DNA of 64,000 nt, from the NCBI RefSeq assembly GCF_002968575.1, contig NZ_PVBM01000016.1:1-64000 (forward strand), in the 5' to 3' direction. Made by a program: the position numbers and the translations under genes. Position 1 is the stretch's first letter, and every line of letters begins with the position of its first letter. The notes under the pieces were generated by a model. That model searched no databases. It saw nothing but the letters and a program-made list of their open reading frames with translations, and had not been told where the DNA came from. Below are positions 25,941 through 42,233 of this stretch, piece by piece. The DNA is from Neorhizobium huautlense. GTDB taxonomy: Bacteria > Pseudomonadota > Alphaproteobacteria > Rhizobiales > Rhizobiaceae.

Positions 25941-27290
25941 ATGTCGCTTCCGGAATGGCTTTCAGGCTCCTCTGAAGAGGCCGGATTCCTCCGGCTCGTT
26001 CTCGATCACGTCTCGGATTGTCTTGTCGCTGTCGACACGGAAGGAACGATTGTCCTGATTAACGACCCCTATTGCCGCCTTCTTGGCGGCGAGGCAGAGG
26101 AGTTTCTCGGACGGCACATAACTGACGTGGTCGGGCCGCAAACCAGGCTTCATTTCGTTGCCCGGGGTATTGGCACGCATATCGGTTATCCGCTGGAGGT
26201 GCGCGGCCACAAGCTGGTGACGAAACAGGTGCCGGTGCACAAGGACGGACAGATCATCGGCGCCGTGGGTTTGGCGCTGTTCTCCGATTACAATGCTCTG
26301 AAGAAGACCTACAGCCGGATTTCGAAGGCGGAACTTGCCATTCCCTCGAAACCGAAGGCATGGCAATCGAAATTCGGCCTCGACGATATCATCGGGACTG
26401 GCGCGGTGATGGACGCGTTCCGTGACAACCTGAAACTCGCGGCCGCCTATGATGTGCCTGTCCTCATACGCGGGGAGACTGGCAGCGGCAAGGAACTGGC
26501 CGCGCAGGCGATACATTCGCTGTCGGAACGCAGTACGATGCCCTTCGTGTGGGTCAACTGCGCGTCGATACCAAGCGAACTGATCGAGGCGGAGTTGTTC
26601 GGATATGACGGGGGTGCGTTCACAGGCGCTCGCAGTCAGGGCAAGCCGGGAAAATTCGAGTTGGCTGCAGGGGGCGTCATATTCCTGGATGAGATTGGCG
26701 ACATGCCGCTTACCCTCCAAGGCAGTCTGTTGCGGGTTTTGCAGACTGGCGAGATCGTCCGCGTCGGCGGCACTCATCCAGTCAGCATCGACGTGCGCAT
26801 CATCTGCGCGACGAACAGGCCGCTGGCCGAACTGATAGAGGCGGGACGGTTCAGAGAAGATCTTTACCATCGTCTGAGCGTATTGCCGATCGATGTTCCT
26901 GCCTTGCGAGAAAGAGAAAACCTCGATCTGTTTGCCAAACAGTTGCTTGAGCGCATCGCGAGCAGGCTCTCAAAGTCGGCGCCGGAGCTGACATGCGAGG
27001 ACCACGCTTTGATTGCTGCGCACGAGTGGCCAGGCAATGTGCGGGAACTGGAGAATGCACTCACGCGCATGGTCGTGACGGGAAAGTTATCGCTCTTGTC
27101 GATGGCAGCGGCCCGCCCGACCTCGGCCAAGGCGGGGGGAGACCTGAAGAGCCGCGTCAGATCCGAGACCCACACAGCACTTCGTGCGGCTCTCCAGGAG
27201 GCGGGGGGCAACAAGCAGCGCGCAGCCGAGATACTCGGCATCAGCCGCGCGCAACTCTACAGGCTGCTCAAGGAGGATCGACCGGCCTAA
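25941..27290 (+). CDS. PAS-domain sigma-54-dependent activator
   Basis: 449 residues. PAS sensor domain at about 15-125 ([20 protein letters not shown], [10 protein letters not shown]), AAA+ domain at about 148-375 with Walker A GETGSGKE (178-185), the sigma-54 contact loop GAFTGA (225-230) and Walker [12 protein letters not shown], then a Fis-type HTH at about 415-445 ([21 protein letters not shown]). The architecture is that of aromatic/short-acid responsive activators such as PrpR or HbpR-like proteins with a PAS input. Divergent from the hydrolase-transporter operon, which has a matching sigma-54 promoter. Confidence 0.95.
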
Positions 27291-27362: not shown

Positions 27363-28565
27363 TCATTCGAAGTCGAGGGCCTGAAGGAGATCCTCGACGA
27401 GATCCTCGGCATCTTCAAGGCCTGCTGAGCACCGTATGACGCCCTCGCCAAGGATATCGCAAAGCTCTCTCTCGGCGAGCGGGAGGTGACGGGTCGTCGT
27501 GAGACGAGACGAACCGCAAATGAAACTGCCAAGTTCTGCTACATTGCCGCCAGGCGTGATCAGCCTCAGTCGTTTGATCATTGCCGCCGCAGCATCAGCT
27601 CCCCGGTGCAGTCCAAAGGCAAGCATCCCGCCGCCGCCGGTCATCTGACGGCGGGCGGTTTCATAGTCCGGGTGGGATCTCAAGAGAGGATATCTGACCC
27701 ACGCCACGGAGGGGTGGGCTTCCAAGGTCAGAGCAAGCGCGTGCGCAGCACTGCAATGTTGATCCATACGAAGTGCCAAGGTGTTCAGGCCGCGCAATAT
27801 CAGGAACGATGCATGCGGTGAGATGGCCGTTTCATGCGGATGACGAAGGCTCTCCTCCCTCAACTGTCGGATGACCCTCGCCTCACCAAGCAGCACGCCT
27901 CCGACGGTGTCACCGTGACCATTTATGTATTTCGACAAGGAGTGCAGAACGATGTCCGCCCCGTGTTCCAGCGGACGCTGAAGCACAGGCGTTGCAAGCG
28001 TGCTGTCGACTGCCACCTTGAGGCCATGGGTATGAGCACGATCGGAAATTCTGGCAACATCCAGCACCTGGTTGAGAGGATTGGTGGGGGTGTCGAGATA
28101 GACAAATCTCGTTCGGGCTGTGACCGAATGGTTGATGGCCTTTTCGTCCGAAAGATCCGTTGCGACAAGCTTCGCGCCAACCGCTGAAACGATCTCCCAC
28201 ATGAGATAGGCCGTATCCGTGCAGACGGGTCTGTGAACGATCATCTCGTCTCCGGCCGACAGCAATGACCGGACAAAAGTGCGAAAGGCGGTCAAGCCTG
28301 ATGAGAGGCCCAGGCCCGCCTGCGCCCCTTCCAGACGAGCGAGCTTCTCCTCAAGTTGTGTTGTGGCCGAAAGATCTCCGTCCGGACCATCAAACCCGAC
28401 TTTGATGGCCCGGCCACAAGCCGACAAAGCAGATGTGCCGGGGATGGAGCCCACGAATTTTGATGGAAACGGATCATGTATCGTGCGGGTTGAAAAGCCG
28501 AGATCTTCGAAATCCGCTTCGGCTTCCCCGGTGTCCTGATCGCCAAGCGAGTGCTTTCCGTTCAT
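27363..28565 (-). CDS. Cys/Met metabolism PLP enzyme, divergent active site
   Basis: 400 residues, fold-type I, of the cystathionine gamma-synthase/gamma-lyase family. The PLP Lys is in HSLSKYINGHGDT and the PLP-binding Asp in VAVDSTLATPVLQRP. Two normally conserved features are absent. The YSRxxNPT motif that supplies Tyr and Arg to the neighbouring subunit is replaced around residue 60 by GFDGPDGDLSATTQ. The Tyr that stacks on PLP and acts as acid/base is replaced by Cys in HRPVCTDTAY. The other two paralogs (33232 and 45747) keep both. Twenty bases downstream of the XRE-cupin regulator, so co-transcribed with it. Possibly a gamma-lyase for an unusual substrate such as canavanine, or a partner subunit. 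Confidence 0.85.
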   Translation of the reverse strand: MNGKHSLGDQDTGEAEADFEDLGFSTRTIHDPFPSKFVGSIPGTSALSACGRAIKVGFDGPDGDLSATTQLEEKLARLEGAQAGLGLSSGLTAFRTFVRSLLSAGDEMIVHRPVCTDTAYLMWEIVSAVGAKLVATDLSDEKAINHSVTARTRFVYLDTPTNPLNQVLDVARISDRAHTHGLKVAVDSTLATPVLQRPLEHGADIVLHSLSKYINGHGDTVGGVLLGEARVIRQLREESLRHPHETAISPHASFLILRGLNTLALRMDQHCSAAHALALTLEAHPSVAWVRYPLLRSHPDYETARRQMTGGGGMLAFGLHRGADAAAAMIKRLRLITPGGNVAELGSFICGSSRLTTTRHLPLAERELCDILGEGVIRCSAGLEDAEDLVEDLLQALDFE

Positions 28566-28585
28566 TCGTGCTCCCCCTTGTCTAT

Positions 28586-29209
28586 CTAAAGACCGGTTCG
28601 CACCCGCGGCCGCTGCAGTTCCGCCACCGTCATAACGAAGCGCAATTCAGCGGTTCCGCAATTCATGTAGGCATGCTTGTCTTCCGTTCGCGCCAGGACC
28701 GATGACCCCGCCTGCACCAGATACTCGCTTTCGCCAAGCTTCAGGGTGAGTTCGCCAACTTCGACATTGAGAAGTTCGAGTGTGCCAGGCGAATGGCCCG
28801 GCGATTCGAAAATTTCGCCAGGCAACAGCGTCCAGCGCCAAAGCTCGATCTCGTCCGGCCCGTTGGTTCCCACGAGAAGCGTGGCGCTTCCGCCCTTTGG
28901 ACCACGCCACAAGGTTGAAGCGTCTTGCGGAGGGACAATGCGGACCGGAACGCTCGAGGCGACGCCGACGAAATCGGCGACCGATACGCCGAGCGCCGTT
29001 GCAGCCCGGCACAACGTAGCGATGCTCGGATTGGCAGTCCCCTTTTCGATTTCGACGAGCATGCCCTTGCTCACACCGGACTTCCGAGAGAGCTCGTCGA
29101 GTGTCAGGCCGCTCTGGCGCCTGAACGTTTTCATGTTTTGGGAGACGGTTGCGCTGACGCGCTCGACGTCAGCGACCGATTCGGTCGATATATTGACTTT
29201 CTTTTCCAT
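28586..29209 (-). CDS. XRE-cupin transcriptional regulator
   Basis: 207 residues: HTH_XRE at about 23-80 (LTLDELSRKSGVSKGMLVEI, then EKGTANPSIATLCRAATALG) and a C-terminal cupin sensor (about 120-195, LLPGEIFESPGHSPGTLELL). Same architecture as SutR/YdcN-type and other amino-acid-responsive regulators. ATG at 29209 (MEKKV) is preferred to 29221. Divergent from the B3/B4 gene with only 43 bp between the two starts, in which a perfect palindrome lies; it likely represses both directions until its ligand is present. Confidence 0.9.
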   Translation of the reverse strand: MEKKVNISTESVADVERVSATVSQNMKTFRRQSGLTLDELSRKSGVSKGMLVEIEKGTANPSIATLCRAATALGVSVADFVGVASSVPVRIVPPQDASTLWRGPKGGSATLLVGTNGPDEIELWRWTLLPGEIFESPGHSPGTLELLNVEVGELTLKLGESEYLVQAGSSVLARTEDKHAYMNCGTAELRFVMTVAELQRPRVRTGL

Positions 29210-29222
29210 GGTCGATATCATA

Positions 29223-29235
29223 GACCAAATTGGTC
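29223..29235. promoter_or_regulatory. Operator palindrome GACCAA-A-TTGGTC
   Basis: A perfect inverted repeat with a single central base, between the divergent regulator (start 29209) and B3/B4 gene (start 29253). Very likely the XRE-cupin binding site. A 10-base half, ATAGACCAAA, recurs inverted at 36074-36083 before the homoserine operon. Confidence 0.7.
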
Positions 29236-29252
29236 AATGGGAGCTAGAGGGC

Positions 29253-30011
29253 ATGTTGGATTTTCCGGTGATCGACACCGATATCGTAAAAATCGCACCG
29301 GACTTTCGCGCGATCAGCATTCTGGTTGACGCCAACGATGGGGTGCGCGGCACAATGAGCCGCGACGTCCTTGGGGAAGCCTGTGATTTCGTGCGCACCG
29401 GCGGACCGCAATGGGCGGACGCGCATCTCGCTTCCTGGGCGGAAGTCTATAGCCGCTTTGGCGCAAAGCCCAATCGAACGCCGTGTTCTGCGCAGGCGCT
29501 GAAAAAGCGGGTCGACAAAGACGGTCGCCTTCCGTCGATCGGCCCGCTGGTTGACCTTTACAACGCGGTGAGCCTGCGTTTTGCAGTGCCGGTTGGCGGC
29601 GAAAATTTCGATGCCTATGTGGGCCAGCCGCGGCTGTCGATCGCCGACGGCACGGAAGCCTTCGATACGGTTGCAAACGGCGAGGCGATCATCGAGCACC
29701 CGTCCAAAGGCGAAGTGATCTGGCGCGATGACGTGGGTGTGACATGCCGCCGGTGGAACTGGCGGCAGGGAACGCGCACGCGGCTGGATTCTGTCGGCGG
29801 CCGGATGTGGTTCATCCTCGAGAGCCTTGGGACGATGCCGGAAGAGGCGCTTGAAGAGGCCGCGAACATGCTGGTGAACGGGCTTCGGCAACTGGCGCCT
29901 GGCTGTGAGGTCTATAGACATCTCCTCACGGCACAGGACACGCAGGCAGGCCCGGCGGCGAAGGTCAGTATATTGACCGATGGAGGCGTGTTTCCGTCGA
30001 AGGCCGACTGA
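29253..30011 (+). CDS. Standalone B3/B4 tRNA-editing-domain protein
   Basis: 252 residues of the COG3382 group, which corresponds to the editing B3/B4 module of phenylalanyl-tRNA synthetase beta chain without the synthetase. Recognisable segments: AISILVDANDGV, FGAKPNRTPCSAQALKKRV, PSIGPLVDLYNAVSLRFAVP and GEVIWRDDVGVTCRRWNWRQ. One member is known to deacylate canavanyl-tRNA(Arg), protecting the cell from canavanine in protein. ATG at 29253 has GGGAG/GAGG upstream. Divergent from an XRE-cupin regulator and upstream of the ABC transporter on the same strand; context supports an editing role against an imported amino-acid analogue. Confidence 0.88.
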   Translation: MLDFPVIDTDIVKIAPDFRAISILVDANDGVRGTMSRDVLGEACDFVRTGGPQWADAHLASWAEVYSRFGAKPNRTPCSAQALKKRVDKDGRLPSIGPLVDLYNAVSLRFAVPVGGENFDAYVGQPRLSIADGTEAFDTVANGEAIIEHPSKGEVIWRDDVGVTCRRWNWRQGTRTRLDSVGGRMWFILESLGTMPEEALEEAANMLVNGLRQLAPGCEVYRHLLTAQDTQAGPAAKVSILTDGGVFPSKAD

Positions 30012-30119
30012 CCAGCGGTTACCCCTGATTAAGATCAACGATTTTTTGTCGCGGCGACGTGGCGGTGGCGAAGCTGTGCCCGGAGGAGTGGGTGCACGTC
30101 GCATCGCAAAGGAGGAACA

Positions 30120-30902
30120 ATGCGCCCTGAGACACACGTGCCGGCCTTGGTCGTGAATGACGTTCATAAAAGCTATGGATCCCACAAGGTGCTGAAGGGT
30201 ATTTCCCTTTCGGCTGAAAAGGGTGACGTTGTTTCGATCATCGGGTCATCGGGCTCCGGCAAGAGCACCTTCCTGCGCTGCATCAATTTCCTTGAGATTC
30301 CGGATCGTGGGTCCTTTCGCATCAATGGCGAAGATGTTGCGTTCAGAAGCGGCCGGGACGGAAAATCGCAGCCTGCCAACTGGCGGCAGATCGAAAGGCT
30401 GAGGACGGGCCTGGGCATGGTCTTCCAGAGCTTCAACCTTTGGCAACATATGACCATCCTTCAAAACGTCATCGAAGCACCCGTACATGTGCTCGGCGTC
30501 GAGCGGGCAGCAGCCATCGAGAAGGCCGAAGCCCTGCTGGCAAAGGTCGGTCTCTACGAGAAGAAGGATGCCTACCCTGCTTTTCTCTCCGGCGGCCAGC
30601 AGCAACGCGCCTCCATCGCCCGTGCACTCTGCGTCGATCCCTCCGTCATGCTGTTCGATGAGCCGACCTCTGCCCTTGATCCCGAGCTTGTCGGCGAGGT
30701 GTTGAAAGTCATCCGCGGCCTCGCAGAGGAGGGTCGCACCATGATCATGGTCACTCACGAGATGAAGTTCGCTCGCGATGTCTCGACACGCGTCATGTTT
30801 CTGCACCAGGGCCAAGTGGAGGAAGAAGGTTCCCCCGCACAGGTCTTCGGCGCACCCACGAGCGCTCGCTGCAAGGAATTCGTTGCAGCCGGTTCGCACT
30901 GA
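30120..30902 (+). CDS. Polar amino-acid ABC transporter ATP-binding protein
   Basis: 260 residues, HisP/OccP-like. Walker A GSSGSGKSTFLRC, Q-loop GMVFQSFNLWQHMT, signature LSGGQQQRASIARALC, Walker B VMLFDEPTSALDPE and switch His in VTHEMKFARDV. The closest family members transport basic or polar amino acids (histidine, arginine, octopine, nopaline). Preceded by AGGAGG. Starts a four-gene transporter set. Confidence 0.93.
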   Translation: MRPETHVPALVVNDVHKSYGSHKVLKGISLSAEKGDVVSIIGSSGSGKSTFLRCINFLEIPDRGSFRINGEDVAFRSGRDGKSQPANWRQIERLRTGLGMVFQSFNLWQHMTILQNVIEAPVHVLGVERAAAIEKAEALLAKVGLYEKKDAYPAFLSGGQQQRASIARALCVDPSVMLFDEPTSALDPELVGEVLKVIRGLAEEGRTMIMVTHEMKFARDVSTRVMFLHQGQVEEEGSPAQVFGAPTSARCKEFVAAGSH

Positions 30903-30939
30903 CCACTCAACAGTCTCAACAGCAAAAAGGGGAATGCAA

Positions 30940-31701
30940 ATGAAGCACCTAGGAAAAGCGCTTGCCATCACGTTGTTCATGATGGCGGCAGATGCGCATG
31001 CAGAAATCCGCTTTGGCATCGTCAACGAGGCCTACCCGCCTTACACGACCAAGGACGCCTCCGGTAAAGCGATTGGCTGGGAAATCGACCTCATGGACGC
31101 GGTATGTGAGGAACTCAATGAGAAATGCACGATCGTCGACGTTGCGTGGGATGGCCTCATTCCGGCACTGGAAAGCAAGAAGATCGACGTGATCTGGTCC
31201 TCCATGTCGATCACCGACGAACGCAAGAAGCGGATCGACTTCACCGACAAGTACTATTCGGCACTGGCCGGGATGATCGGCCCGAAGGACGGCGCCATGG
31301 GGGTCACGGCCAAGGAACTGAAGGACAAAACGGTGGGCATTGCCGTTTCGACGACCCAGTCGGCATATTTCAAGGAGCACTTTGCCGACGTCGCTAGCGA
31401 GAAAAGCTACGCGACAGTCGATGAGTCCTTTCAGGACCTCGCGTCCGGCCGCATCGATTATGTCTTTGCTGACACGGGCCCGCTCAAGGAGTTTCTAAAA
31501 ACCGATCTGGGACAGGGATGCTGCGAGTACAAGGGCAATGTCGAACCGGATGACGCCATTCTTGGCGCAGGTGTGGGTGGCGGTGTGCGCAAGGGTGATG
31601 ACGAGCTCCGTGAACGGCTGAACGCCGCCATAAAAGCGGTCAGAGCCAGCGGCGAATACGCCGAATTCAGCAAGAAGTTTTTCGACTACGACCCCTATTG
31701 A
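30940..31701 (+). CDS. Amino-acid ABC transporter substrate-binding protein
   Basis: 253 residues, periplasmic binding protein family 3. Signal peptide of about 21 residues (MKHLGKALAITLFMMAADAHA) with cleavage before EIRFG. Conserved IRFGIVNEAYPPYT, GKAIGWEIDLMDAVCEEL and later GRIDYVFADTGPL. AAGGGG sits eight bases before ATG 30940; ATG at 30934 is the alternative. Ligand likely a basic or polar amino acid. A pair of Cys (GQGCCEY) is unusual. Confidence 0.92.
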   Translation: MKHLGKALAITLFMMAADAHAEIRFGIVNEAYPPYTTKDASGKAIGWEIDLMDAVCEELNEKCTIVDVAWDGLIPALESKKIDVIWSSMSITDERKKRIDFTDKYYSALAGMIGPKDGAMGVTAKELKDKTVGIAVSTTQSAYFKEHFADVASEKSYATVDESFQDLASGRIDYVFADTGPLKEFLKTDLGQGCCEYKGNVEPDDAILGAGVGGGVRKGDDELRERLNAAIKAVRASGEYAEFSKKFFDYDPY

Positions 31702-31767
31702 GACAGATGACGCTGCCGATTGCCGCGCAAGCCGCGGTGATCGGCACACCCGATTGGAAGACTTCCC

Positions 31768-32490
31768 ATGAACACTCCACATTCAGCGCTGGACCTGTTG
31801 TCATTGACTCCACCCGGGTGGGGCGGCGTGTTGCTGGCTGGTGCGCTGGCAACCGTCCTGATCTCGGCTGGTGCGTATCTGGTCGGAATGATGATAGGCT
31901 TCTTCGGCGCCCTTGGAAAACTGAGTGGGATTCCCCCGCTGCGGTCCCTTCTGAATGCTTATACGACAATCGTTCGAGCCGTTCCTGAGCTCATTTTGAT
32001 CGTTGCCTTGTACTATGCGGGAACCGACGGACTAAACCGCCTGCTTGCCTTGGCGGGCGTCGGACCTGTCGAGGTCAATGGCCTTGTCGCGGCTGTCGCG
32101 GTGCTCGGTTTCGTACAGGGGGCCTACATGACGGAGGTCCTGCGCGGCGCAATCCTGGCAATTCCGGTGGGACAGCTGGAGGCAGCCAAGGCGTTCGGCA
32201 TGCGCCCGACGCTGCGCTTCCGCAGGATCGTGCTTCCGGGTCTCATTCCGAACGCGCTGCCGGGTTTTGCCAATCTCTGGATGTCGGTTATCAAGGATAG
32301 CGCATTGATTGCCGTCGTCGGCTATCAGGAGCTGGCGCTGGCCGCACGCGTCGCTGCGAGCAACACCAAGGAATACATGGTGTTTTTTCTCGCAGCTGCA
32401 GCCCTCTATCTCGTGATCACCATCGTCTCAAACATGCTCTTCTCTGCGCTCGAAGTCTCCTTCCGCCGCGGACAAAAGCCGGCTTCATAA
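31768..32490 (+). CDS. Amino-acid ABC transporter permease (HisQ-like)
   Basis: 240 residues with about five membrane segments and the EAA loop EAAKAFGMRPTLRFRRIVLP that docks on the ATPase. Typical NAYTTIVRAVPELILIVALYY segment after the first helices. Pairs with the next gene, 12 bp downstream, to form the membrane channel. Confidence 0.92.
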   Translation: MNTPHSALDLLSLTPPGWGGVLLAGALATVLISAGAYLVGMMIGFFGALGKLSGIPPLRSLLNAYTTIVRAVPELILIVALYYAGTDGLNRLLALAGVGPVEVNGLVAAVAVLGFVQGAYMTEVLRGAILAIPVGQLEAAKAFGMRPTLRFRRIVLPGLIPNALPGFANLWMSVIKDSALIAVVGYQELALAARVAASNTKEYMVFFLAAAALYLVITIVSNMLFSALEVSFRRGQKPAS

Positions 32491-32502
32491 GGGAGTTTGG
32501 AC

Positions 32503-33192
32503 ATGGATTTCAGCTGGATCTTTTCCTATCGAGACCTGCTCATACAAGGCGCGTTCCTCACCTGCTTGCTACTTGCGATTTCGGTGACCTGCGGCTTTGT
32601 GCTTGCGGTCTTCCTGGCGATCGCCCAGGTTGGCCGCAACCCGGGCGCGCGCTGGCTGTCAAAGGGCTACTGCACGTTCTTCCGTGGCACGCCGCTCTTG
32701 ATCCAGCTTTGGCTCCTCTACTACGGCCTCGGCACCTATCTACCCTATGTGCCTGGGCTGAGAACCAGTTTCCTTTGGCCACTGCTGAGGGAGGGCCTTT
32801 TCTTCGCTGCCCTTGCGCTAACGCTGAATTTTGCAGCCTACCAAGGAGAAATCCTCAGAGGCGCGATGTTGGCGGTCCCAAGGGGCGAGCTTGAGGCGGC
32901 CCGCGCCGTCGGCATGTCGCAAGCCAAGATTCTTCGCCGTATCTGGCTTCCCCGCGCCATAAGGATCGGACTTCCTACCTTTGCCGGAGAGGTGGTCCTT
33001 CAGCTCAAAGCCACACCCATCGTCTTTTCCGTGACGGTGATGGACCTATACGGCGCCGCCTACAAGATCCGTCAGGATACGCTGCTCGTTTACGAGCCAC
33101 TGCTTCTCGTCACCCTCTTCTATGTCGGCCTGACTTTTTTCATCACTCAGGCCTTCCAGAAACTTGAAAATGCTGTGCCGACGCGCCGATAG
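32503..33192 (+). CDS. Amino-acid ABC transporter permease (HisM-like)
   Basis: 229 residues, about five membrane segments, with FFRGTPLLIQLWLLYYGL and the EAA loop EAARAVGMSQAKILRRIWLP. ATG at 32503 with AGGGAG upstream is preferred over the TTG at 32497. Second half of the heterodimeric channel. Followed after 39 bp by a PLP gamma-lyase, so uptake and breakdown are coupled. Confidence 0.92.
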   Translation: MDFSWIFSYRDLLIQGAFLTCLLLAISVTCGFVLAVFLAIAQVGRNPGARWLSKGYCTFFRGTPLLIQLWLLYYGLGTYLPYVPGLRTSFLWPLLREGLFFAALALTLNFAAYQGEILRGAMLAVPRGELEAARAVGMSQAKILRRIWLPRAIRIGLPTFAGEVVLQLKATPIVFSVTVMDLYGAAYKIRQDTLLVYEPLLLVTLFYVGLTFFITQAFQKLENAVPTRR

Positions 33193-33231
33193 CGCCGGTC
33201 AAGACCCATGAACAAAACCAGAGGCCACGAC

Positions 33232-34443
33232 ATGTCCAGACCAAACAAACATGAGCTTTCAACGCTCTCCTTCGAAACGCTTTCGGTACACGGCGGCAAC
33301 GAGATTGACCAGACGTCAGGTGCGATACGCACGCCGATCGTCATGGCGAATTCGTATCTTCTTCCCTACGACCCCTCGACCATGGACTGGTCCGACACCG
33401 AGGCGCCCTCCTACACCCGAAACTCCGGGCACAATCAGATCTGCCTGCAGCGCAAGCTGGCGGCCATGGAAGGCGGCGAGGACGCAGCCGTCTTCGCAAC
33501 CGGTGTGGCAGCGCTTCATGCCGTGTTCTTCACCTTCCTAAAGAGCGGCGATCATGTCATCGTCGGCGACGTGACCTACGAAGCGGTCTGGCGGCTTTTT
33601 GCCGAACTCCTGCCGCAGCGCTACAAGATCGAGGCCACCTTCGTCGATATGGGCGACATGGATGCGGTGAGGGCGGCGGTGCGGCCCAACACCAAGCTGA
33701 TCCATACCGAAACGATTGCCAACCCGACCACAAAAGTCGCCGACATCGCAACGCTCGTGTCCATCGCCAAGGAAGCCGGAGCTCTTCTGTCGGTGGATTC
33801 AACCTTTACCCCTCCTCCCTTCTTCCGGCCGCTGGCACTCGGCGCTGATCTCGTCATCCACTCCCTGACCAAGTATATCAATGGTCATGGTGACGCGATG
33901 GGCGGGGTGGTGATTGGGTCCAAGGATCTAGTCCATCATGTGAAGGCGGATGCCCTCGTTGATCTCGGCGGTACGATTTCACCGTTCAATGCCTGGCTCA
34001 TCACCCGTGGGTCGGTCACCCTCCCCTTGCGCCTCAAGCAGCAGTTCGCCACCGCACAGACCGTTGCGGATTACCTTTCCGGCGACAATCGTGTTGCCTA
34101 TGTCACCTATCCAGGACTTGAGAGCCACGACCAGCATCAGCTGGCAAAGGCGCAATTTGCAGGCAAGGGTTATGGTGGAGTGATGGCCTTCGCTGTCAAC
34201 GGTGATCCGGACGCTCAGAACCGCTTCGTCGCCAATCTGAAGGTGATCACTTCGGCTGTTTCACTCGGTCATGATGAGACGCTGATTGTTCATGTCGGAG
34301 GAAGCGGTCGCGGCGGAGCCGAGCGCTATCCGCTAAACTTCCAGAAGTATGGCCATCTGCGTCTTTCCATCGGACTCGAGGACCCGCAGGACCTCATCGC
34401 CGATATCGAGCACGCACTTGATGAGACCTTCAACCGGTTCTGA
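33232..34443 (+). CDS. PLP-dependent gamma-lyase-like enzyme (candidate canavanine gamma-lyase)
   Basis: 403 residues of the cystathionine gamma-lyase/methionine gamma-lyase family. Tyr and Arg of the inter-subunit motif are present (SYTRNSGHNQICLQR), the stacking Tyr is in VGDVTYEAVWRLF, Asp in LSVDSTFTPPPFF and PLP Lys in HSLTKYINGHGDA. ATG at 33232 has AGAGG seven bases upstream; ATG at 33208 is an alternative. Directly after the transporter genes and before the guanidinium exporter gene. Canavanine gamma-lyases of this family release hydroxyguanidine and yield homoserine, which the downstream operon could use. Other gamma-substituted substrates are possible. Confidence 0.85.
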   Translation: MSRPNKHELSTLSFETLSVHGGNEIDQTSGAIRTPIVMANSYLLPYDPSTMDWSDTEAPSYTRNSGHNQICLQRKLAAMEGGEDAAVFATGVAALHAVFFTFLKSGDHVIVGDVTYEAVWRLFAELLPQRYKIEATFVDMGDMDAVRAAVRPNTKLIHTETIANPTTKVADIATLVSIAKEAGALLSVDSTFTPPPFFRPLALGADLVIHSLTKYINGHGDAMGGVVIGSKDLVHHVKADALVDLGGTISPFNAWLITRGSVTLPLRLKQQFATAQTVADYLSGDNRVAYVTYPGLESHDQHQLAKAQFAGKGYGGVMAFAVNGDPDAQNRFVANLKVITSAVSLGHDETLIVHVGGSGRGGAERYPLNFQKYGHLRLSIGLEDPQDLIADIEHALDETFNRF

Positions 34444-34465
34444 AGATGCCAGTTCAGCCATTCGG

Positions 34466-34503
34466 TGTAGCGGGAAGGATCTCCTGAAGACGGTCTCGCT
34501 ACA
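34466..34503 (+). promoter_or_regulatory. Leader hairpin before sugE
   Basis: TGTAGCGGGA and TCTCGCTACA pair over ten positions with one G-U, enclosing a smaller AGGA-TC-TCCT hairpin. It lies between the gamma-lyase stop and the sugE start. It has no U-tract, so may be an RNA processing or attenuation structure. It does not match the guanidine riboswitch patterns I know. Confidence 0.4.
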
Positions 34504-34550
34504 TGAGCGTCGCTGCCGGTTCGATCCGGAATTCTCAAGGAACATATGAC

Positions 34551-34868
34551 ATGCATTGGATCATCCTGGCCATTGCAGGACTACTCGAGGTGGTCTGGGC
34601 CTTTTACATGAAAAAATCGGAAGGCTTCACGCTGCTTGTTCCGTCTGTGATCACTCTTGTCGCGATGATCGGAAGCGGGGTCCTGCTTTCGTTCTCGATG
34701 CGGGTTTTACCGCTTGGTACGGCCTATACCGTCTGGACTGGCATTGGAGCAATTGGGTCCTTCCTGCTCGGAATTCTGGTCTTGAACGAACCCGCAGCAC
34801 CAATGCGCATATTGGCCGGCATGATGATCGTTGCGGGTCTTGTGATGATGAAGCTGTCGAGTGTCTGA
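34551..34868 (+). CDS. sugE: SugE/Gdx family guanidinium exporter (SMR)
   Basis: 105 residues with four membrane helices. SugE subtype features: AGLLEVVWAFYMKKSEGF with the essential Glu in TM1, and GTAYTVWTGIGAIGSFLLG in TM3. This subtype exports guanidinium in exchange for protons rather than quaternary drugs. In a cluster with a gamma-lyase that may release (hydroxy)guanidine, an export role for that product fits. ATG at 34551 is preferred; the longer frame from 34503 has no hydrophobic extension. Confidence 0.92.
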   Translation: MHWIILAIAGLLEVVWAFYMKKSEGFTLLVPSVITLVAMIGSGVLLSFSMRVLPLGTAYTVWTGIGAIGSFLLGILVLNEPAAPMRILAGMMIVAGLVMMKLSSV

Positions 34869-34959
34869 GAGATGCAGCTCGGAGACGCAGCTTCGTGTCG
34901 AACGATGCCAAAGCAAAACGCGATCTCCTCTACGCCTAGAAGGCAGATTGGACCGAGAC

Positions 34960-35871
34960 ATGCTGGATTATCGCTCCGTTAGAGCCGTTATTGCAGTAAT
35001 CAGGCTGGGCAGCTTCGAAAGCGCCGCTCGCGAACTTCGTGTCACACAATCGGCCGTCTCGCAGCGCGTTAAGCAGCTGGAGAAACGTCTCGGCACAGCC
35101 TTGATCGTCAGAGGCAACCCTTGTTCCGCAACGAAAGAAGGTGAGCAGCTTGTTCGCCATTTTCAGCGCGTCGAGATGCTCGAGCACGATCTGGCCGCAG
35201 AATTTCCGCGCCTCACCGATCCCTGCTCCGCGTCCGAACGTTCCAGGCTGAGGATCGGTGCAGATCCAGAATGGCAGGGAAGCTGGATAGTTCAGGCACT
35301 CTCGGGCTTCACGCAGGACGCACCATTTCTTGTCGATTTGGTTCTGGATGAGACTGTTCGTGTCGGTGACAGGCTGCGTGCCGGCGAACTTCTTGCTGCA
35401 GTTACGCGTGAAGAGGAATTCGTAGAGGGGTATTCCAGCTTTTCATTGGGAAGCCTGCCCGTCACAGCCGTGGCGACGCCGGCCTTCATGCAGCATCATT
35501 TTCCCCGCGGGCTGCCGTCAGCGGCAATCGCGAGCGCCCCGGGCCTTGCGACGGGACCGACAGACCGCTTACCGCACCAGTGGATTAAGAGAGCACTCGG
35601 CGCGGACGTGAAGGTCTCCCTACATCGGCTGCCCTCACGTCGGAGCATCTTCGATGCAGCCCTCGCCGGCATTGGATGGGGTGTCGTCCCGGTTCACCTT
35701 GCCACAGATCACCTCAGATCCGGTGCGCTAGTCGAGCTGCGCTCCGGGACAGGCTTTGCCTTGCCGTTGTTTTGGCAGGTTGATCCTGTGGCAGTGAAAC
35801 AGTTGGAGAGGTTGACGGCAAGCGTCGTCCAGTTAGCGAAAAAGAACCTTGAACAAGATGGAAATACGTAG
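34960..35871 (+). CDS. ArgP-like LysR regulator
   Basis: 303 residues. HTH MLDYRSVRAVIAVIRLGSFE, then AARELRVTQSAVSQRVKQLE, typical of ArgP/IciA. ArgP responds to lysine/arginine and controls basic amino-acid export; mutants in E. coli are known for altered canavanine resistance. Here it follows sugE by 91 bp, so may control sugE or the transporter set in response to arginine-like ligands. ATG at 34960. Confidence 0.88.
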   Translation: MLDYRSVRAVIAVIRLGSFESAARELRVTQSAVSQRVKQLEKRLGTALIVRGNPCSATKEGEQLVRHFQRVEMLEHDLAAEFPRLTDPCSASERSRLRIGADPEWQGSWIVQALSGFTQDAPFLVDLVLDETVRVGDRLRAGELLAAVTREEEFVEGYSSFSLGSLPVTAVATPAFMQHHFPRGLPSAAIASAPGLATGPTDRLPHQWIKRALGADVKVSLHRLPSRRSIFDAALAGIGWGVVPVHLATDHLRSGALVELRSGTGFALPLFWQVDPVAVKQLERLTASVVQLAKKNLEQDGNT

Positions 35872-36073
35872 ATGCCGCTGCTCGACCGGCAACGATCAGC
35901 GGCACTGCCTGGAAATACGGAACACGAGCGGACTAACATGTTCATGATCCCGATCATAGACCGACACCCAACGAGCCTCCGGATACGCCGAAGCGGGTGT
36001 CACGTCTCAGCCACGGCCCAGTGCCTTGCATACCCAATCTAAACCACTGCGGAATGAGCGAAATGCACTGTTG

Positions 36074-36083
36074 TTTGGTCTAT
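36074..36083 (-). promoter_or_regulatory. Half-site of the XRE-cupin operator
   Basis: TTTGGTCTAT on the plus strand is the exact reverse complement of 29220-29229. It lies 67 bp before the homoserine dehydrogenase start. Only one half of the palindrome is present. Confidence 0.35.
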
Positions 36084-36150
36084 CTGCTCCGTTCCGCCTG
36101 AGCGATCCGCAATTCAAATTCGTGAAAGACAAGTCACCAGGAGGATCGTC

Positions 36151-37212
36151 ATGACAGTCTACAATATCGCTCTTATCGGATTTGGTGGGGTCAATCGGGC
36201 TCTTGCCGAGCTCATTGCGACCCGAAACCCGCAATGGCAGAGGGACCTGGGCTTCAGCCTGAACATCGTCGCCGTGAGCGACCTTTATCTCGGTTCGGTC
36301 ATCTCGCCCAACGGCCTTGACGCGAAGACACTGATTGAAGCGAATTTCACCAAGGGTGGTTTCGGACAGCTGTCTGGCGGCAGCGCCGAAGCGGACAACG
36401 AGACAATCATCAAGACAGCACCTGCCGACATCATTGTCGAGGCGACCTTCACCAATCCCAAGGATGGCGAACCGGCCGTATCTCATTGCCGCTGGGCGCT
36501 TCAGACCGGCAAGCATGTCGTCACGACGAATAAGGGGCCGGTTGCTATCGCGGCCCAGGAACTCAAGGACCTTGCCAAGGTAAACGGCCTCCATTTCGAA
36601 TACGAAGGCTCCGTCATGAGCGGCACTCCAGTCATTCGTATGGCTGAAAAGACGCTCGGCGGCGCTGAACTAAAGGGCTTCGAGGGCATCTTGAACGGCA
36701 CGTCAAACTTCATCCTTGGCCGCATGGAAGGCGGTCTCGACTTTGCCTCCGCCGTCAAGGAAGCCCAAGAGCTCGGTTACGCCGAAGCCGACCCGACCGC
36801 TGACGTGGAAGGTTTTGACGTGCGGCTCAAAGTCGTCATCCTCGCAAATGAGCTGCTTGGTGCCAAGCTCAGACCTGAGGATGTTACCTGCAACGGTATC
36901 TCCAAACTTTCTCTCGCTGACATTGAAGAAGCAACCCAGGCGAAGAGCCGCTGGAAGCTTATTGGATCAGCGGTCCGCAATGCTGATGGAAGAGTATCCG
37001 GCAACGTCTCCCCAAAACAGCTTCCTCTCGAGCACCCATTGGCAGGCGTGAATGGCGCAACCAACGCTGTCTCGTTGAACACCGAGCTGCTCGGCTCCGT
37101 AACGATCACAGGTCCAGGGGCTGGACGGATTGAAACGGCCTACGCCCTGCTCTCCGACATTGTCGCCATCCACAATGCACAGGCCAACGACGGCAAGAAG
37201 GATGCCGCATGA
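36151..37212 (+). CDS. Homoserine dehydrogenase, short form
   Basis: 353 residues, NAD(P) domain with [16 protein letters not shown] at the start and the substrate domain [37 protein letters not shown]. No C-terminal ACT domain, so feedback inhibition by threonine is unlikely; this suits a catabolic enzyme oxidising homoserine to aspartate 4-semialdehyde. AGGAGG precedes the ATG. First gene of a six-gene operon; its stop overlaps the next start (ATGATG). Confidence 0.93.
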
Positions 37213-38627
37213 TGCATAGCGTTTCCCTCAACAATGCCCCCGCTGTCCAGCACATAACCGTTAGCAACCCGTTTGACGGCAGCATAGTCGGCACAGTCGT
37301 CACGACGAGCGCCGACGACATCGGCTACCTTCTTGAGCGCGCAAGGCGCGGTGCTCAGATCGCACGCCGCCTTCCCCGTTACCAACGCTCTGCAATCCTC
37401 GAAAAGGCCGCCTCTGCAGTTGAGAAGAACAAAGAGGAGTTCGCTCTTCTTATTGTTCGGGAAGCCGGCAAGACGATCACGCAGGCTCGCAAGGAAGCGA
37501 CCCGCTGCATCAACACACTGAAGCTCTCGGCCGACGAAGCCAAGCGCAACGCCGGGGAAGTCATTCCCTTCGACTCCTATGCCGGATCGGAAACGCGTCA
37601 GGGGTGGTTTACCCGTGAACCGTTGGGCATTATTACGGCAATCACCCCCTACAACGACCCCCTGAACCTCGTCGCCCACAAGCTTGGGCCGGCAATCGCC
37701 GGCGGCAACGCAGTTCTTCTCAAGCCGTCGGAGCTGACCCCGTTGTCAGCGCTCAGACTGGCAGACGTCCTGGTTGAAAGCGGTCTTCCGGAGGAGATCG
37801 TCACCGTCGCGATCGGTGGCGCTGATCTTGGAAAAGCCCTCGTCACTGCTCGGGATGTTCGGATGATTTCGTTCACCGGCGGGTTTGTGACAGGCGAGGC
37901 GATCGCCAAGAATGCCGGCCTGAAGAAGCTGGCGATGGACCTTGGCGGCAACGCTCCAGTGATCGTGATGGAAAACTCGGATTTCGACGCGGCAGTCGAA
38001 GGCTGCGTCTCAGGCGCATATTGGGCAGCCGGCCAGAATTGCATCGGAACGCAGCGCATTCTGGTTCAGCGACCGATCTACGAACAATTCAGGACGGAGT
38101 TCGTTGCGAAGACCAAGAGGCTCAAAACTGGCAATCCGCTCGAAGCGGATACGGACGTGGGCCCGATGATCGCAGAGCGGGCAGTGACCCGGGCTGCAGC
38201 TATGGTTGATCGGGCGATCAGCGCAGGTGCTACTTTGCTGTGCGGCAACAAGCCCTCCGGCAATCTCTTCCCACCAACCGTGCTGGAGAACGTTCCTTCC
38301 GACTGCGATGTCTGGAAAGAAGAGGTTTTTGCTCCGATCGTCCTCCTCCAGCCGTTTGACAAGCTGAGCGATGCAATCGAGATGGCAAACAGTCCCGACT
38401 ACAGCCTTCACGCGGGCATCTTCACGAACGACCTGGAAGCCGCTCTGGACGCGGCGAGCCGGATTGATGCCGGTGGCGTCATGATCAATGACTCCTCGGA
38501 CTACCGTTTCGACGCAATGCCCTTCGGCGGCTTCAAATACGGCAGCATGGGACGCGAGGGGGTGCGTTTTGCATACGAAGACATGACGCAGCCCAAGGTC
38601 GTCTGCATCAATCGGTTGAAGACCTAA
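37209..38627 (+). CDS. Aldehyde dehydrogenase, probable aspartate-semialdehyde oxidising
   Basis: 472 residues, ALDH superfamily. NAD-binding and [30 protein letters not shown], catalytic Cys in [14 protein letters not shown], and the C-terminal [15 protein letters not shown]. The general-base Glu normally in LELGG is Asp here (AMDLGGNAP), a change seen in some non-standard ALDHs. Overlap with the homoserine dehydrogenase stop and position before aspartase suggest it converts aspartate semialdehyde to aspartate, bypassing the biosynthetic, phosphorylating route. Succinate- or other semialdehyde use cannot be ruled out. Confidence 0.88.
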
Positions 38628-38672
38628 TCACCACGCCAGACCGGTCCAGTCACCAGCATTCGGGAGTTTCAC

Positions 38673-39551
38673 ATGTTCAAAGGTTCCATTACCGCGCTCG
38701 TTACACCGTTCGCTGATGGCAAGGTCGATGAGGCTGCATTGTGTAGCCTCATCGAATGGCAGATTGGTGAGGGGTCTTCCGGCCTTGTTCCATGCGGGAC
38801 AACCGGTGAGAGCCCAACCCTTAGCCATGCTGAGCATAAGCAAGTCATCGAATTAACGATCGATGTCGCCAAAGGACGGGTTCCGATCATTGCCGGGGCC
38901 GGTTCTAACAGCACCGAGGAAGCAATAGACTTCGTCCACCACGCCCAAAAGGCAGGTGCAGACGGGCTGCTGATTGTTTCTCCATACTACAACAAGCCGA
39001 CCCAGGAAGGCATTTACCAGCACTTCAAGGCGATAGATGCTGAGGCAGACATCCCGATCATTGTCTACAATATTCCCGGCCGCAGCGTTATCGATATCCA
39101 GGTGGAAACGCTCGCGCGCATTTTCAAAGACTGCAAGAACGTCACTGGCGTGAAAGACGCAACTGGCAACATCCTTCGGCCGTCGTTGGAGCGCATGGCA
39201 TGTGGGAAGGAGTTCAATCTCCTGTCAGGCGAGGATGGCACCGCACTGGGTTACATGGCACATGGTGGCCATGGCTGCATCTCGGTGACTGCAAATGTTG
39301 CCCCGCGCCTTTGCGCCGAGTTTCAGCATGCCTGCCTGAGTGGAGATTTCAGTCTCGCACTCACTTTGCAGGATCAGTTGATGCCGCTTCATCGCGCCCT
39401 TTTCCTCGAAACCAATCCCGCAGGTCCGAAGTATGCCTTGTCGCGTCTTGGGATCATCCGTGGTGACCTGCGCCTTCCGCTCGTGGACGTTAGCCCGCCA
39501 GTGAAGCAGGCGATCGACGACGCTATGCGTCACGCCGGAATTGATGTGTAG
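38673..39551 (+). CDS. dapA: DapA-type 4-hydroxy-tetrahydrodipicolinate synthase
   Basis: 292 residues with all DHDPS hallmarks: [15 protein letters not shown], Tyr in [12 protein letters not shown], Schiff-base Lys in [10 protein letters not shown], and [13 protein letters not shown]. It condenses aspartate semialdehyde with pyruvate. In this catabolic operon it may drain toxic aspartate semialdehyde to lysine biosynthesis, or act on a related aldehyde. 45 bp after the ALDH gene, 11 bp before aspA. Confidence 0.92.
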
Positions 39552-39562
39552 AAAGACGAGAA

Positions 39563-40978
39563 ATGATCACTGAACGCATTGAAGCTGATTTGATTGGCTC
39601 CCTGCAGATCCCTGCCAATGTCCTCTACGGCGTCCATACGCGACGCGCCGAACTCAATTTCGATGTCTCTGGGCTCTGCCTCCGCGACTTCCCGGAACTT
39701 ATCCAGTCCATGGCCATGATCAAAAAGGCCGCGGTCATGGCAAACTATGAGCTTGGTCTTCTCTCGCAGGAAAAGACCAACGCAATTTCAGAAGCTTGCG
39801 ACCACCTCATCGAGCTCAAGGATGTAGATGGCAACTTCCCCGTCGACATGATGCAGGGTGGCGCTGGCACATCCACGAACATGAACGTCAATGAGGTGAT
39901 AAGCAACCTGGCGCTCAGTAAGCTGGGGGCCAAGGCAGGCGAATACAGCAAGCTTCATCCAAATGACGATGTAAACCTCTCGCAGTCGACCAACGACGTG
40001 TACCCGACGGCCCTGCGCCTCACCATTCTGCGCGCATGTGACGGCTTGGTGAGTGCACAGATCAGCCTCAGGGACGCGTTCCGCGCGAAGGCAAGAGAGT
40101 ATGCCGCGGCACTTAAGGTTGGACGCACACAGCTGCAGGACGCTGTGCCAATGACTGTCGGCCAGGAGTTCGAAGCCTTTGCCGAACTCATCGACGAAGA
40201 CATCAGGCAACTCCAGACCGTATCCAAGCTGCTCAAGGAAGTGAACCTCGGGGGATCTGCGATAGGGACGTCGATCAATGTGCCGCCCGGCTTTGCCGCT
40301 ACAGCCTGCCGTCACTTGATAGAGATTTCAGGCTTCCAGCTCATTCCAGCTCGAAATCTGATCGAGGCAACCTCTGACACGGGGGGCTTTGTCTCCTTCT
40401 CGGGCGTCCTCAAGCGCATGGCGGTGAAGCTGACGAAAATCAGCAACGACCTGAGGCTCTTGAGCAGCGGGCCTCGTGGCGGATTTGGCGAGATCCGGCT
40501 GCCCGCCGTGCAGGCGGGCTCGTCGATCATGCCCGGAAAGGTCAACCCCGTAATTCCGGAGATGATCAATCAGATCAGCTTCCAGGTCATCGGGAATGAT
40601 CTTACCGTCACTCTCGCTGCCAGTGCAGGTCAGCTCCAGTTAAACGCGATGGAGCCGGTGATCGTTCTCAATATTCTCCAATCGATGCGAATGCTGACCC
40701 GCGGAATGGACATTTTCAAGCATCGCTGCGTCGATGGCATTGAGGTGGACACAGCGCGCTGCGAGGCAGTTCTTGACCAGACACTCGTGCTGGCAACTCC
40801 GCTCGCAAAGATGATCGGCTACAGCAATGCAGCCGTCCTTTCGAAGAAGGCTCTGGCTGACAATCGAAAATTGCGAGAGGTCGTTGAGGAGGCAGGCGTC
40901 CTTACAGCGCAGCAAATTGAGACATTGTTCGCGGGGACGGCGGAGTTTACACGCCTGCCAACGCGCTCGTCAGCTTGA
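39563..40978 (+). CDS. aspA: Aspartate ammonia-lyase
   Basis: 471 residues, fumarase/aspartase superfamily. Signature GSSIMPGKVNPVIPE with the catalytic loop, and conserved MQGGAGTSTNMNVNEVISN, NLSQSTNDVYPTA and GRTQLQDAVPMTVGQEF. Converts aspartate to fumarate and ammonia, the final step needed to feed homoserine carbon into the TCA cycle. Eleven bases after dapA. Confidence 0.94.
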   Translation: MITERIEADLIGSLQIPANVLYGVHTRRAELNFDVSGLCLRDFPELIQSMAMIKKAAVMANYELGLLSQEKTNAISEACDHLIELKDVDGNFPVDMMQGGAGTSTNMNVNEVISNLALSKLGAKAGEYSKLHPNDDVNLSQSTNDVYPTALRLTILRACDGLVSAQISLRDAFRAKAREYAAALKVGRTQLQDAVPMTVGQEFEAFAELIDEDIRQLQTVSKLLKEVNLGGSAIGTSINVPPGFAATACRHLIEISGFQLIPARNLIEATSDTGGFVSFSGVLKRMAVKLTKISNDLRLLSSGPRGGFGEIRLPAVQAGSSIMPGKVNPVIPEMINQISFQVIGNDLTVTLAASAGQLQLNAMEPVIVLNILQSMRMLTRGMDIFKHRCVDGIEVDTARCEAVLDQTLVLATPLAKMIGYSNAAVLSKKALADNRKLREVVEEAGVLTAQQIETLFAGTAEFTRLPTRSSA

Positions 40979-40992
40979 TGGGATAGCAAAAA

Positions 40993-41793
40993 GTGGCGGT
41001 ATTTACTGAATTGTCCGATGAGGATCGCGTATCAATCACGACAGCCTACGGGATGATGTCGTTGTCGTCGGTAATCGGCATTGCCGATGGCGATACAGAA
41101 ACCACATACCTCTTTCGCACAAAAGAAGAGGAATACATCGTTACGCTGTTTGAAAACGGTGCGGAACCACTTGATCTCGAGAGAGCGTTCGTCACGATGG
41201 AGACGCTTCATCGCAATGGCGTGCCCTGCCCCAGGCCCATACGCACCGTTGACGGCAGCGCGACATTCCATGTGGCTGAACGTCTGGTGGCGGTCGTCAC
41301 ATTCGTCCCAGGATCATCTACCTCCAACGCGACAGATGCGAAATGCGTGAGCTTGGGCCGTGTCATGGCTCAAATCCATACTGTCCTTGAGCGCAAAGTT
41401 AAGAGGGTGGCGACAGAACTTCCCACGGGCGCTGTCCACGGTGCACTGGTTCACGACAATGTCTTCTACATTGATGACAGAGTCAGCGGCGTAATCAACT
41501 TCCGCCTGCGCCACGATGATGTTCTGGTGTCGGAAGTGGCTGACGCTTTGGTTTCATGGACAGGTCTTGCCACCGGAAAATTGGACAAATCCCGGGCAGG
41601 CGCGCTTCTCCGTGGCTATCAAGAGGTGCGCCAACTCTCGGAAGCCGAGATGCAAGCGCTTCCAGCTTTTGTGATGGCATCCGTTTCTCGCCGTTTTGCC
41701 GGCAAGAACGGGAAAACTGGCGTGCCGGAGATCGCTTTGGCGGCATACGAAACTGCTCGCAATATTCTGAACGACAGCTATCCAACATCATGA
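40993..41793 (+). CDS. Homoserine-kinase-like protein (APH fold) lacking catalytic residues
   Basis: 266 residues related to type II homoserine kinase ThrB: MAVFTELSDED at the start, YIVTLFENGAEPLDLERAFV, GVPCPRPIRTVDG and AERLVAVVTFVPG. The family is about 320 residues; about 50 are missing between the Q-I-H helix (near 129) and the catalytic loop. The catalytic motif, HxD-L in ThrB, reads H149-G-A151-L, so the Asp base is Ala. The metal-binding IDF reads I168-N-F. Asp155 of HDN remains. Likely no phosphotransfer; a pseudokinase binding homoserine, or a relic. GTG start 14 bp after aspA; overlaps the lrp start by four bases. Confidence 0.82.
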   Translation: MAVFTELSDEDRVSITTAYGMMSLSSVIGIADGDTETTYLFRTKEEEYIVTLFENGAEPLDLERAFVTMETLHRNGVPCPRPIRTVDGSATFHVAERLVAVVTFVPGSSTSNATDAKCVSLGRVMAQIHTVLERKVKRVATELPTGAVHGALVHDNVFYIDDRVSGVINFRLRHDDVLVSEVADALVSWTGLATGKLDKSRAGALLRGYQEVRQLSEAEMQALPAFVMASVSRRFAGKNGKTGVPEIALAAYETARNILNDSYPTS

Positions 41794-42233
41794 AGTACCT
41801 GATCGATCGGATAGATGAACAGATACTCTCCGAGTTGAAGGCGAATGCGCGCGTCTCGCACGCGGAACTGTCAGCGAAAGTGAACCTGTCGCGAAACGCG
41901 GTACGTGTTCGGATCGAAAGGCTAGAGCGCGAGGGCTTCATAAAGGGATACACCATCGTCACTGGCGATGGTGGCGGTGACCAACATGTCACCACAGCCT
42001 TGATGTTCGTATATCGCCAGGACCGGATGAGAGGCGGTGATGTCATTCAGGCGCTTCGCAAAATTCCCGAAGTTGTGGCATGCGATGTCATGACGGGCGA
42101 CTTCGATCTGCTAGTACGCGTCGAATCTCCCGAAGCCGATCGTATCCGCCGCATCTGGCAACAGGTTTCGGAAATGCCGGGGGTACGGGACACACTGACC
42201 GCGTTCGCGCTTTCTTCAGTCATAAGAAAATGA
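41790..42233 (+). CDS. Lrp/AsnC family transcriptional regulator
   Basis: 147 residues: AsnC HTH at about 5-55 (IDRIDEQILSELKANARVSH, then LSAKVNLSRNAVRVRIERLE) and a RAM effector domain (FDLLVRVESPEADRIRRIW). Its ATG overlaps the stop of the kinase-like gene (ATGA), so it is made with the homoserine operon and probably regulates it in response to homoserine or a product. Confidence 0.93.
   Translation: MKYLIDRIDEQILSELKANARVSHAELSAKVNLSRNAVRVRIERLEREGFIKGYTIVTGDGGGDQHVTTALMFVYRQDRMRGGDVIQALRKIPEVVACDVMTGDFDLLVRVESPEADRIRRIWQQVSEMPGVRDTLTAFALSSVIRK

Follow-up and report, generated by a model that had tools for sequence, protein, structure and literature searches.

The closest described relative of the system considered here is the canavanine utilisation operon of Pseudomonas canavaninivorans, in which a canavanine gamma-lyase yields homoserine and hydroxyguanidine and the gene of a B3/4 protein precedes the operon; a similar arrangement is described for Rhizobium leguminosarum (Hauth et al. 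2023, PMC10018355, in the part of the text available to us), and for the Pseudomonadaceae and Rhizobiales its authors refer to Hauth et al. 2022 (RSC Chem Biol). A second point of comparison is plasmid pRL8 of R. leguminosarum, which carries a homoserine dehydrogenase gene induced in the pea rhizosphere (PMC3333776, likewise in part). We analysed a 64,000-nucleotide stretch, hereafter the window, from contig C54 (NZ_PVBM01000016.1) of the 5.7 Mb genome of Neorhizobium huautlense, and in it a gene cluster at 27363–42233. With a probability of roughly one half, this cluster is a canavanine-utilisation and self-protection locus of the already published type, built from two cassettes, in which paralogues stripped of catalytic residues act as ligand-binding regulatory partners.

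An initial annotation had listed the genes of the cluster, and open reading frame (ORF) calls and family profile matches found every one of them on the strand given there, including a standalone B3/B4 gene divergent from that of an XRE-cupin regulator. A homoserine dehydrogenase (HomDH), aldehyde dehydrogenase and aspartase set is present; activities of homoserine dehydrogenase, aspartate-semialdehyde dehydrogenase and aspartase are reportedly given in the abstract of the 2022 study. The annotation's proposal of one pathway from a legume toxin to fumarate is borne out by gene content, synteny and family membership and, since that pathway has been published for Pseudomonas and the Rhizobiales, is right without being new. 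As in the operons described for P. canavaninivorans and R. leguminosarum, there is a predicted canavanine gamma-lyase (CanGL), a CtdA-type B3/B4 gene directly in front and a homoserine route. What the window shows besides is a stripped gamma-lyase paralogue (GLY2), a pseudo-homoserine-kinase, a DapA, and a flank with a further gamma-lyase (GLY3) and a gene of the dihydrodipicolinate synthase (DHDPS) family; for this comparison Hauth et al. 2022 was represented by its title. The placing of stripped paralogues beside regulators looks unreported: titles and abstract openings from a collection of open-access papers yielded nothing on a pseudoenzyme–Lrp pairing in homoserine or canavanine operons.

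The protein that the annotation had left unexplained as "kinase-like" finds its best NCBIfam matches among homoserine kinases, at scores far below the cut-off (164 against 271 bits). When it is aligned to Agrobacterium tumefaciens ThrB (2ppq), IHADL becomes VHGAL and LIDF becomes VINF, and about 42 residues are absent between the two stretches that match. From the APH fold we take the substituted residues to be the catalytic Asp of H-x-D and the metal-binding Asp of I-D-F. Among the best 120 of 290 homologues, the window's own protein included, the catalytic Asp is replaced by Ala in 116 and by Ser in 4, the metal Asp is Asn in every one, and Asn-Phe-Arg is invariant; 2ppq and the genome's own ThrB (contig C53) keep both acids. 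An AlphaFold model (pLDDT 90, pTM 0.87) has an APH-type fold nearest ThrB, with 2ppq as best Foldseek match (TM 0.77 by query length). The family thus resembles homoserine kinase type II in fold and overall sequence but lacks both Asp residues, and in place of a plain kinase it is a conserved pseudo-homoserine-kinase. An active kinase shunting homoserine to threonine was rejected, both catalytic acids being lost in all 120.

The pseudo-kinase gene travels with homoserine catabolism and with one regulator. An order-wide sample of 297 genomes gave only 3 with the pseudo-kinase, and a family sample of 394 genomes, own included, was therefore used (with E-value limits of 1e-120 for HomDH and 1e-40 for the pseudo-kinase, and at most the best 5–6 candidates scored per genome). 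Fourteen genomes had HomDH and pseudo-kinase, one had HomDH alone and 379 had neither (Fisher p 8e-25, kinship ignored). In 22 of 23 distinct rhizobial loci the Lrp start, estimated by alignment, lies −17 to +22 nucleotides (nt) from the pseudo-kinase stop; the other, L091, is cut off. The ratio of nonsynonymous to synonymous substitution rates (dN/dS) of the pseudo-kinase is 0.11–0.30 in the closer pairs. The window's Lrp is 51–54% identical to the Lrp adjoining a threonine-synthase-like (ThrC-like) gene in Pseudomonas canavanine loci, whereas the next best Lrp matches in its own genome reach 34–35%, and at most 37% in a short match.

These Pseudomonas loci came from a survey of the best 80 of at least 561 CanGL relatives, a sample that favours close relatives and includes some loci with short flanks. 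Within it the pseudo-kinase is confined to rhizobial loci, and all nine Pseudomonas loci carry the ThrC-like gene. By sequence family its products are like threonine synthase (ThrC, 4f4f), from which they differ by loss of the pyridoxal phosphate (PLP) lysine or of the phosphate loop: the lysine (FKD in 4f4f) is Gln in six of the nine. Among the 120 best matches listed in a ThrC search, 22 are close relatives (at least 52%) of the protein of Pseudomonas locus L009, with 20 Gln, one His and one gap in that column; all 21 with a letter there have thus lost the lysine, whereas the other 98 all have Lys together with PTGNFG. The ThrC-like gene stops 9–14 nt before Lrp in seven of the nine loci, and its dN/dS is 0.06–0.19. 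With a ThrB-derived partner in rhizobia, a ThrC-derived one in Pseudomonas and a 51–54% related Lrp in both, the two lineages have the regulator in common but different stripped partners.

The second stripped paralogue of the window, GLY2, had been read as a gamma-lyase-like gene, a reading that needs correcting. GLY2 and GLY3 both match the methionine gamma-lyase family by sequence; in what we take to be methionine gamma-lyase numbering (Y59, R61, Y114, R375), GLY3 retains the equivalents of Y59, R61 and Y114, whereas GLY2 has lost those three, with Cys at 114, but still has the PLP lysine and the Asp that partners it. A tree of 122 sequences places GLY2 in a clade of 18 (support 0.94). In 17 of these Y59/R61 are missing (11 with another residue, 6 with a gap, some of the latter being short proteins), and the same 17 have Cys at 114; P0175 is the sole member with intact residues. 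Among sequences outside the clade with letters at these positions, all 98 have Y59/R61 and all 100 have Y114. The dN/dS of GLY2 is 0.12–0.16, at high dS. In nine of 13 distinct loci GLY2 follows XRE-cupin on the same strand, at about 25 nt in six and 274–281 nt in three.

Because residue loss, selection, adjacency to a regulator and the parallel between two bacterial classes coincide, we infer that the stripped proteins may serve in regulation. Decay offers another account, in which they are pseudogenes hitch-hiking in a mobile region rich in insertion sequences. Transposase genes do lie nearby, most neighbouring genes evolve more slowly than GLY2 and the pseudo-kinase, and a stop codon interrupts one GLY2 copy of another genome; we nevertheless give this account hardly any credence, given the dN/dS of 0.06–0.30 for stripped genes wherever dS is unsaturated and the invariant Asn-Phe-Arg of the pseudo-kinases.

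It is distinctly unlikely that the stripped proteins regulate or stabilise active enzymes as their subunits, GLY2 in mixed oligomers with CanGL or GLY3 and the pseudo-kinase with HomDH or ThrB. Proteins of the gamma-lyase fold assemble into oligomers whose subunits share active sites, and in methionine gamma-lyase Y59 and R61 extend across the subunit interface; such a role would also suit a GLY2 that is not always beside an XRE-cupin-type regulator. Against it, the pseudo-kinase adjoins Lrp, and the stripped partner changes between rhizobia and Pseudomonas while the related Lrp stays.

Several observations weigh against a regulatory role. Loss of known residues is compatible with new chemistry. 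In the GLY2 clade the PLP lysine is kept in 15 of the 17 stripped members, and there is an Arg at the R375 position; the ThrC-like proteins of L024–L026 likewise keep the lysine, their TGNFG loop reading GASFA. L026 has no Lrp match after its ThrC-like gene and L025 only a 37% one. In L006, L007, L008 and L090 GLY2 stands 1.3–1.9 kb from XRE-cupin on the opposite strand (1.3 kb in Rhizobium CB3060, L090), in three of the four next to a GntR/aminotransferase-type gene, and in L141, where XRE-cupin and CtdA genes are present, no GLY2 was found in the interval from them to the sigma-54 gene. The exceptional genome with HomDH alone (G574) has aldehyde dehydrogenase and Lrp as well, and pseudo-kinase, aspartase and DapA were not found in it. 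No relative of the pseudo-kinase or ThrC-like protein was found in the remaining loci of the best 80, actinobacterial ones included; several HomDH-bearing loci among them carry a 48–61% Lrp, so the pairing is not universal.

Some of these points would suit a plain canavanine locus in which neofunctionalisation has turned the stripped paralogues into minor enzymes of different chemistry, for example with side activity on canaline or homoserine derivatives. The retained lysines of GLY2 and of L024–L026, the Arg at R375 and the GLY2 genes away from XRE-cupin fit this account. It accords poorly with the loss of both acids in every pseudo-kinase listed, the loss of the PLP lysine in relatives of the L009 protein and its replacement by Arg in two GLY2-clade members of the tree, and we consider it somewhat unlikely. 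For the regulatory reading, the case for a ligand sensor is stronger for the pseudo-kinase–Lrp pair than for GLY2, whose link to XRE-cupin is the weaker one because it is displaced in four of 13 loci.

The clustering of the genes is not due to chance, since the whole order recurs in Agrobacterium salinitolerans (L001), on plasmids of Sinorhizobium alkalisoli (L089) and A. pusense (L091, where the stretch ends inside the kinase-like gene) and in L133/L138. R. leguminosarum Vaf-46 (L059) and L131 have the order without ArgP in that place, and in CB3060 the plus-strand order is kept while a short LysR gene replaces ArgP and the GLY2-type gene is displaced to the other side. ArgP, an addition that the annotation could not explain, thus varies in presence and place, and its dN/dS of 0.22–0.23 is the highest of the block. 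The cluster had also been called complete; all its genes are there, but conserved neighbours extend beyond both of its ends, at 23222–27290 (MFS, hydrolase and sigma-54 regulator) and 42555–46979 (GST, permease, DHDPS-family protein and third gamma-lyase).

Against L001, L089 and L091, dS is about 0.6–1.4 from the MFS gene through ArgP. For the genes from HomDH to GST it is at least 2.1 or has reached saturation, and for the gene after GST it is 1.2 (in L001 and L089). This jump at HomDH separates a canavanine cassette (27.4–35.9 kb) from a homoserine cassette (36.2–42.2 kb), whose history in the window differs from that of the cassette in front. Homoserine modules also stand alone (L124–L126, L128–L130, L132, L159). 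Homoserine use was reportedly placed on pRL8 by Vanderlinde in 2014. As compared by description, pRL8 is like these modules in having a homoserine dehydrogenase gene, there on a plasmid, and unlike the window, where the module is joined to a canavanine cassette.

Modules L135–L137 are a variant with HomDH, aldehyde dehydrogenase, an arginine-type ABC transporter, a gamma-lyase 42–43% identical to CanGL, aspartase, pseudo-kinase and Lrp; neither CtdA nor Gdx was found in them, and their substrate is perhaps other than canavanine. By extension, the window's own substrate might be another arginine-like or O-substituted homoserine compound. This is very unlikely, as the window combines a guanidinium-type exporter with a CtdA gene beside a CanGL 72–74% identical to those of nine Pseudomonas loci, an arrangement described for canavanine (PMC10018355, in the part available).

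Several features of the canavanine cassette bear on its predicted function. Its B3/B4 protein (Pfam B3_4, scoring 68 bits where the cut-off is 29.3) is 56–58% identical to Pseudomonas copies, the value given for R. leguminosarum against P. canavaninivorans being 55% (same source), and by homology it would deacylate canavanyl-tRNA(Arg). CanGL, whose 72–74% identity refers to L009–L013, L015 and L024–L026, retains the Tyr-x-Arg, Tyr, Asp, Lys and Arg of the active site, has a dN/dS of 0.03–0.04 and is predicted to split canavanine into homoserine and hydroxyguanidine. The closest NCBIfam model for the exporter is SugE (119.6 bits, slightly below the cut-off of 126), consistent with export of (hydroxy)guanidinium. 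One half of a palindromic candidate operator, AAATTGGTCA, recurs exact or altered in rhizobial loci and exact in three Pseudomonas loci (L024–L026); its one exact copy in the 64 kb is at 29227. Further operator copies were rejected: there are four long-pattern matches (up to 3 mismatches) where 0.94 would be expected, 3 of 100 shuffles give at least four, and two of the four are one palindrome read on both strands. Control of CtdA by a guanidine riboswitch was likewise rejected, there being no Rfam match at gathering scores within the window.

Across the best 80 CanGL loci, CtdA (at least 35% identity) lies within the fetched DNA of 23 and HomDH (at least 50%) in 22. Five loci assigned to Actinomycetota by genus name (L030, L037, L045, L055, L073) combine CanGL with CtdA-like (38–51%) and XRE-cupin-like genes and widen the range past the two groups named in the title of Hauth et al. 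2022. Six ORFs of a Burkholderia-type CanGL locus (L018) include no ThrB or ThrC; they encode aldehyde dehydrogenases, an aspartate-dehydrogenase-type protein, a transporter, a PhzF-type protein and an integrase. In a Rhizobiales bacterium an arginase-family gene stands directly upstream of CanGL (L002:8882–9937), its product being a possible hydroxyguanidine or guanidine hydrolase.

DapA, left unexplained by the annotation, has the GTTGE, YYN, YNIPGR and GVKD motifs, which we take to hold the Thr-Thr, Tyr, Arg and Lys of an intact DHDPS active site (TIGR00674, 333.9 bits against 206.15), and a second DapA, 62% identical, is encoded on contig C57. It looks accessory to the locus because several homoserine modules that have the pseudo-kinase (L124, L126, L135, L136) yielded no DapA; the idea that the locus serves to make lysine was rejected on the same count. 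The DHDPS-family protein of the right flank keeps the Schiff-base Lys and the Tyr and has lost the Arg of DapA, a region that does not align in L119 and L141, two stretches of one locus. Relatives occur in 12 of 23 CtdA-bearing against none of 57 CtdA-less CanGL loci (Fisher 2e-8, kinship ignored), and in Pseudomonas L009 such a gene stands 20 nt after CtdA; the protein looks like a real part of canavanine loci. The flanking block, in which GST, a lactate-permease-like transporter, the DHDPS-family protein and GLY3 are divergent from a GntR/aminotransferase-type gene (47061–48545), is whole in L133 and partial in L139–L141.

The locus is probably carried by a symbiotic plasmid or island, as nifB lies at 5335–6816, about 20 kb away, amid IS21, IS66, IS256 and ISL3 transposase genes or fragments. 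Upstream, at 14251–17030, are a nitrile hydratase alpha gene and a CobW-type GTPase; a nitrile hydratase block likewise precedes the locus in S. alkalisoli (L161) and in R. leguminosarum Vaf10 (L093) and was not found in the A. pusense stretch shown (L162). Plants make cyanamide from canavanine (PMC4650597, in part), and hydration of cyanamide by the nitrile hydratase would be a speculative link.

Table 1. Coordinates of the locus and its conserved neighbours in the window.
Feature	Position	Strand	Remark
MFS transporter (−), alpha/beta hydrolase (−), PAS/sigma-54 regulator (+)	23222..27290		conserved upstream neighbours
GLY2, Cys/Met-metabolism PLP-fold protein	27363..28565	−	20 nt downstream of XRE-cupin gene
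XRE-cupin transcription regulator	28586..29221	−	orthologue-sized start about 29209
Palindromic candidate operator	29221..29238	+	between XRE-cupin and CtdA genes
CtdA-type standalone B3/B4 protein	29253..30011	+	252 amino acids; canavanyl-tRNA deacylase by homology (PMC10018355)
ABC transporter ATPase, HisP/ArtP type	30120..30902	+	
Substrate-binding protein, lysine/arginine/ornithine type	30934..31701	+	likely start, inside longer ORF
ABC permease, HisQ/ArtQ type	31768..32490	+	
ABC permease, HisM/ArtM type	32497..33192	+	
Predicted canavanine gamma-lyase (CanGL)	33232..34443	+	active-site residues intact
Gdx/SugE-type SMR exporter	34551..34868	+	likely start, inside longer ORF; putative (hydroxy)guanidinium export
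ArgP/LysG-family LysR regulator	34960..35871	+	likely start, inside longer ORF; TIGR03298, 274.7 bits against cut-off 273.55
Homoserine dehydrogenase (HomDH)	36151..37212	+	second copy; other copy on contig C11
Aldehyde dehydrogenase	37209..38627	+	putative aspartate-semialdehyde oxidation
DapA	38673..39551	+	dihydrodipicolinate synthase active site intact
Aspartate ammonia-lyase	39563..40978	+	
Pseudo-homoserine-kinase	40993..41793	+	catalytic Asp to Ala, metal-binding Asp to Asn; stop overlaps Lrp start by 4 nt
Lrp/AsnC regulator	41790..42233	+	likely start, inside longer ORF
DHDPS-family protein	44798..45697	−	DapA Arg missing (PGR to PGT); relatives in CtdA-bearing loci
GLY3, intact gamma-lyase-family paralogue	45747..46979	−	nearest GLY2 relative found in genome

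Taken together, these features suggest a mechanism in which the first cassette would detect canavanine, which the arginine-type ABC system would import. CtdA would clear canavanyl-tRNA(Arg) and so protect translation, CanGL would convert canavanine to homoserine and hydroxyguanidine, and Gdx would carry (hydroxy)guanidinium out. The second cassette would turn homoserine into aspartate semialdehyde, then aspartate and finally fumarate, and DapA could offer aspartate semialdehyde a side exit. Each cassette also holds a stripped paralogue of an enzyme of similar substrate, here beside a regulator gene, the pseudo-homoserine-kinase with Lrp and GLY2 with XRE-cupin; by binding a pathway ligand these proteins may tune Lrp and perhaps XRE-cupin, so that the operons would open only when homoserine or canavanine is present.

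More broadly, and tentatively, homoserine-catabolic operons may repeatedly have recruited a dead threonine-branch enzyme as the ligand sensor of a neighbouring regulator: a pseudo-kinase with Lrp in rhizobia, a pseudo-threonine-synthase with a related Lrp in Pseudomonas and perhaps a pseudo-gamma-lyase with XRE-cupin, the design having been reached independently in two bacterial classes. If so, a pseudoenzyme–regulator design has evolved independently around the same regulator. In source databases "homoserine kinase" or "threonine synthase" is the name given to many of these proteins; their residues say otherwise, and pathway models that send homoserine to threonine through them would therefore be wrong. 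Should the stripped proteins prove to be sensors, they would show how bacteria distinguish homoserine and canavanine from normal amino acids, would provide a compact test case for the independent evolution of pseudoenzyme regulators, and would bear on which rhizobia thrive around legume roots.

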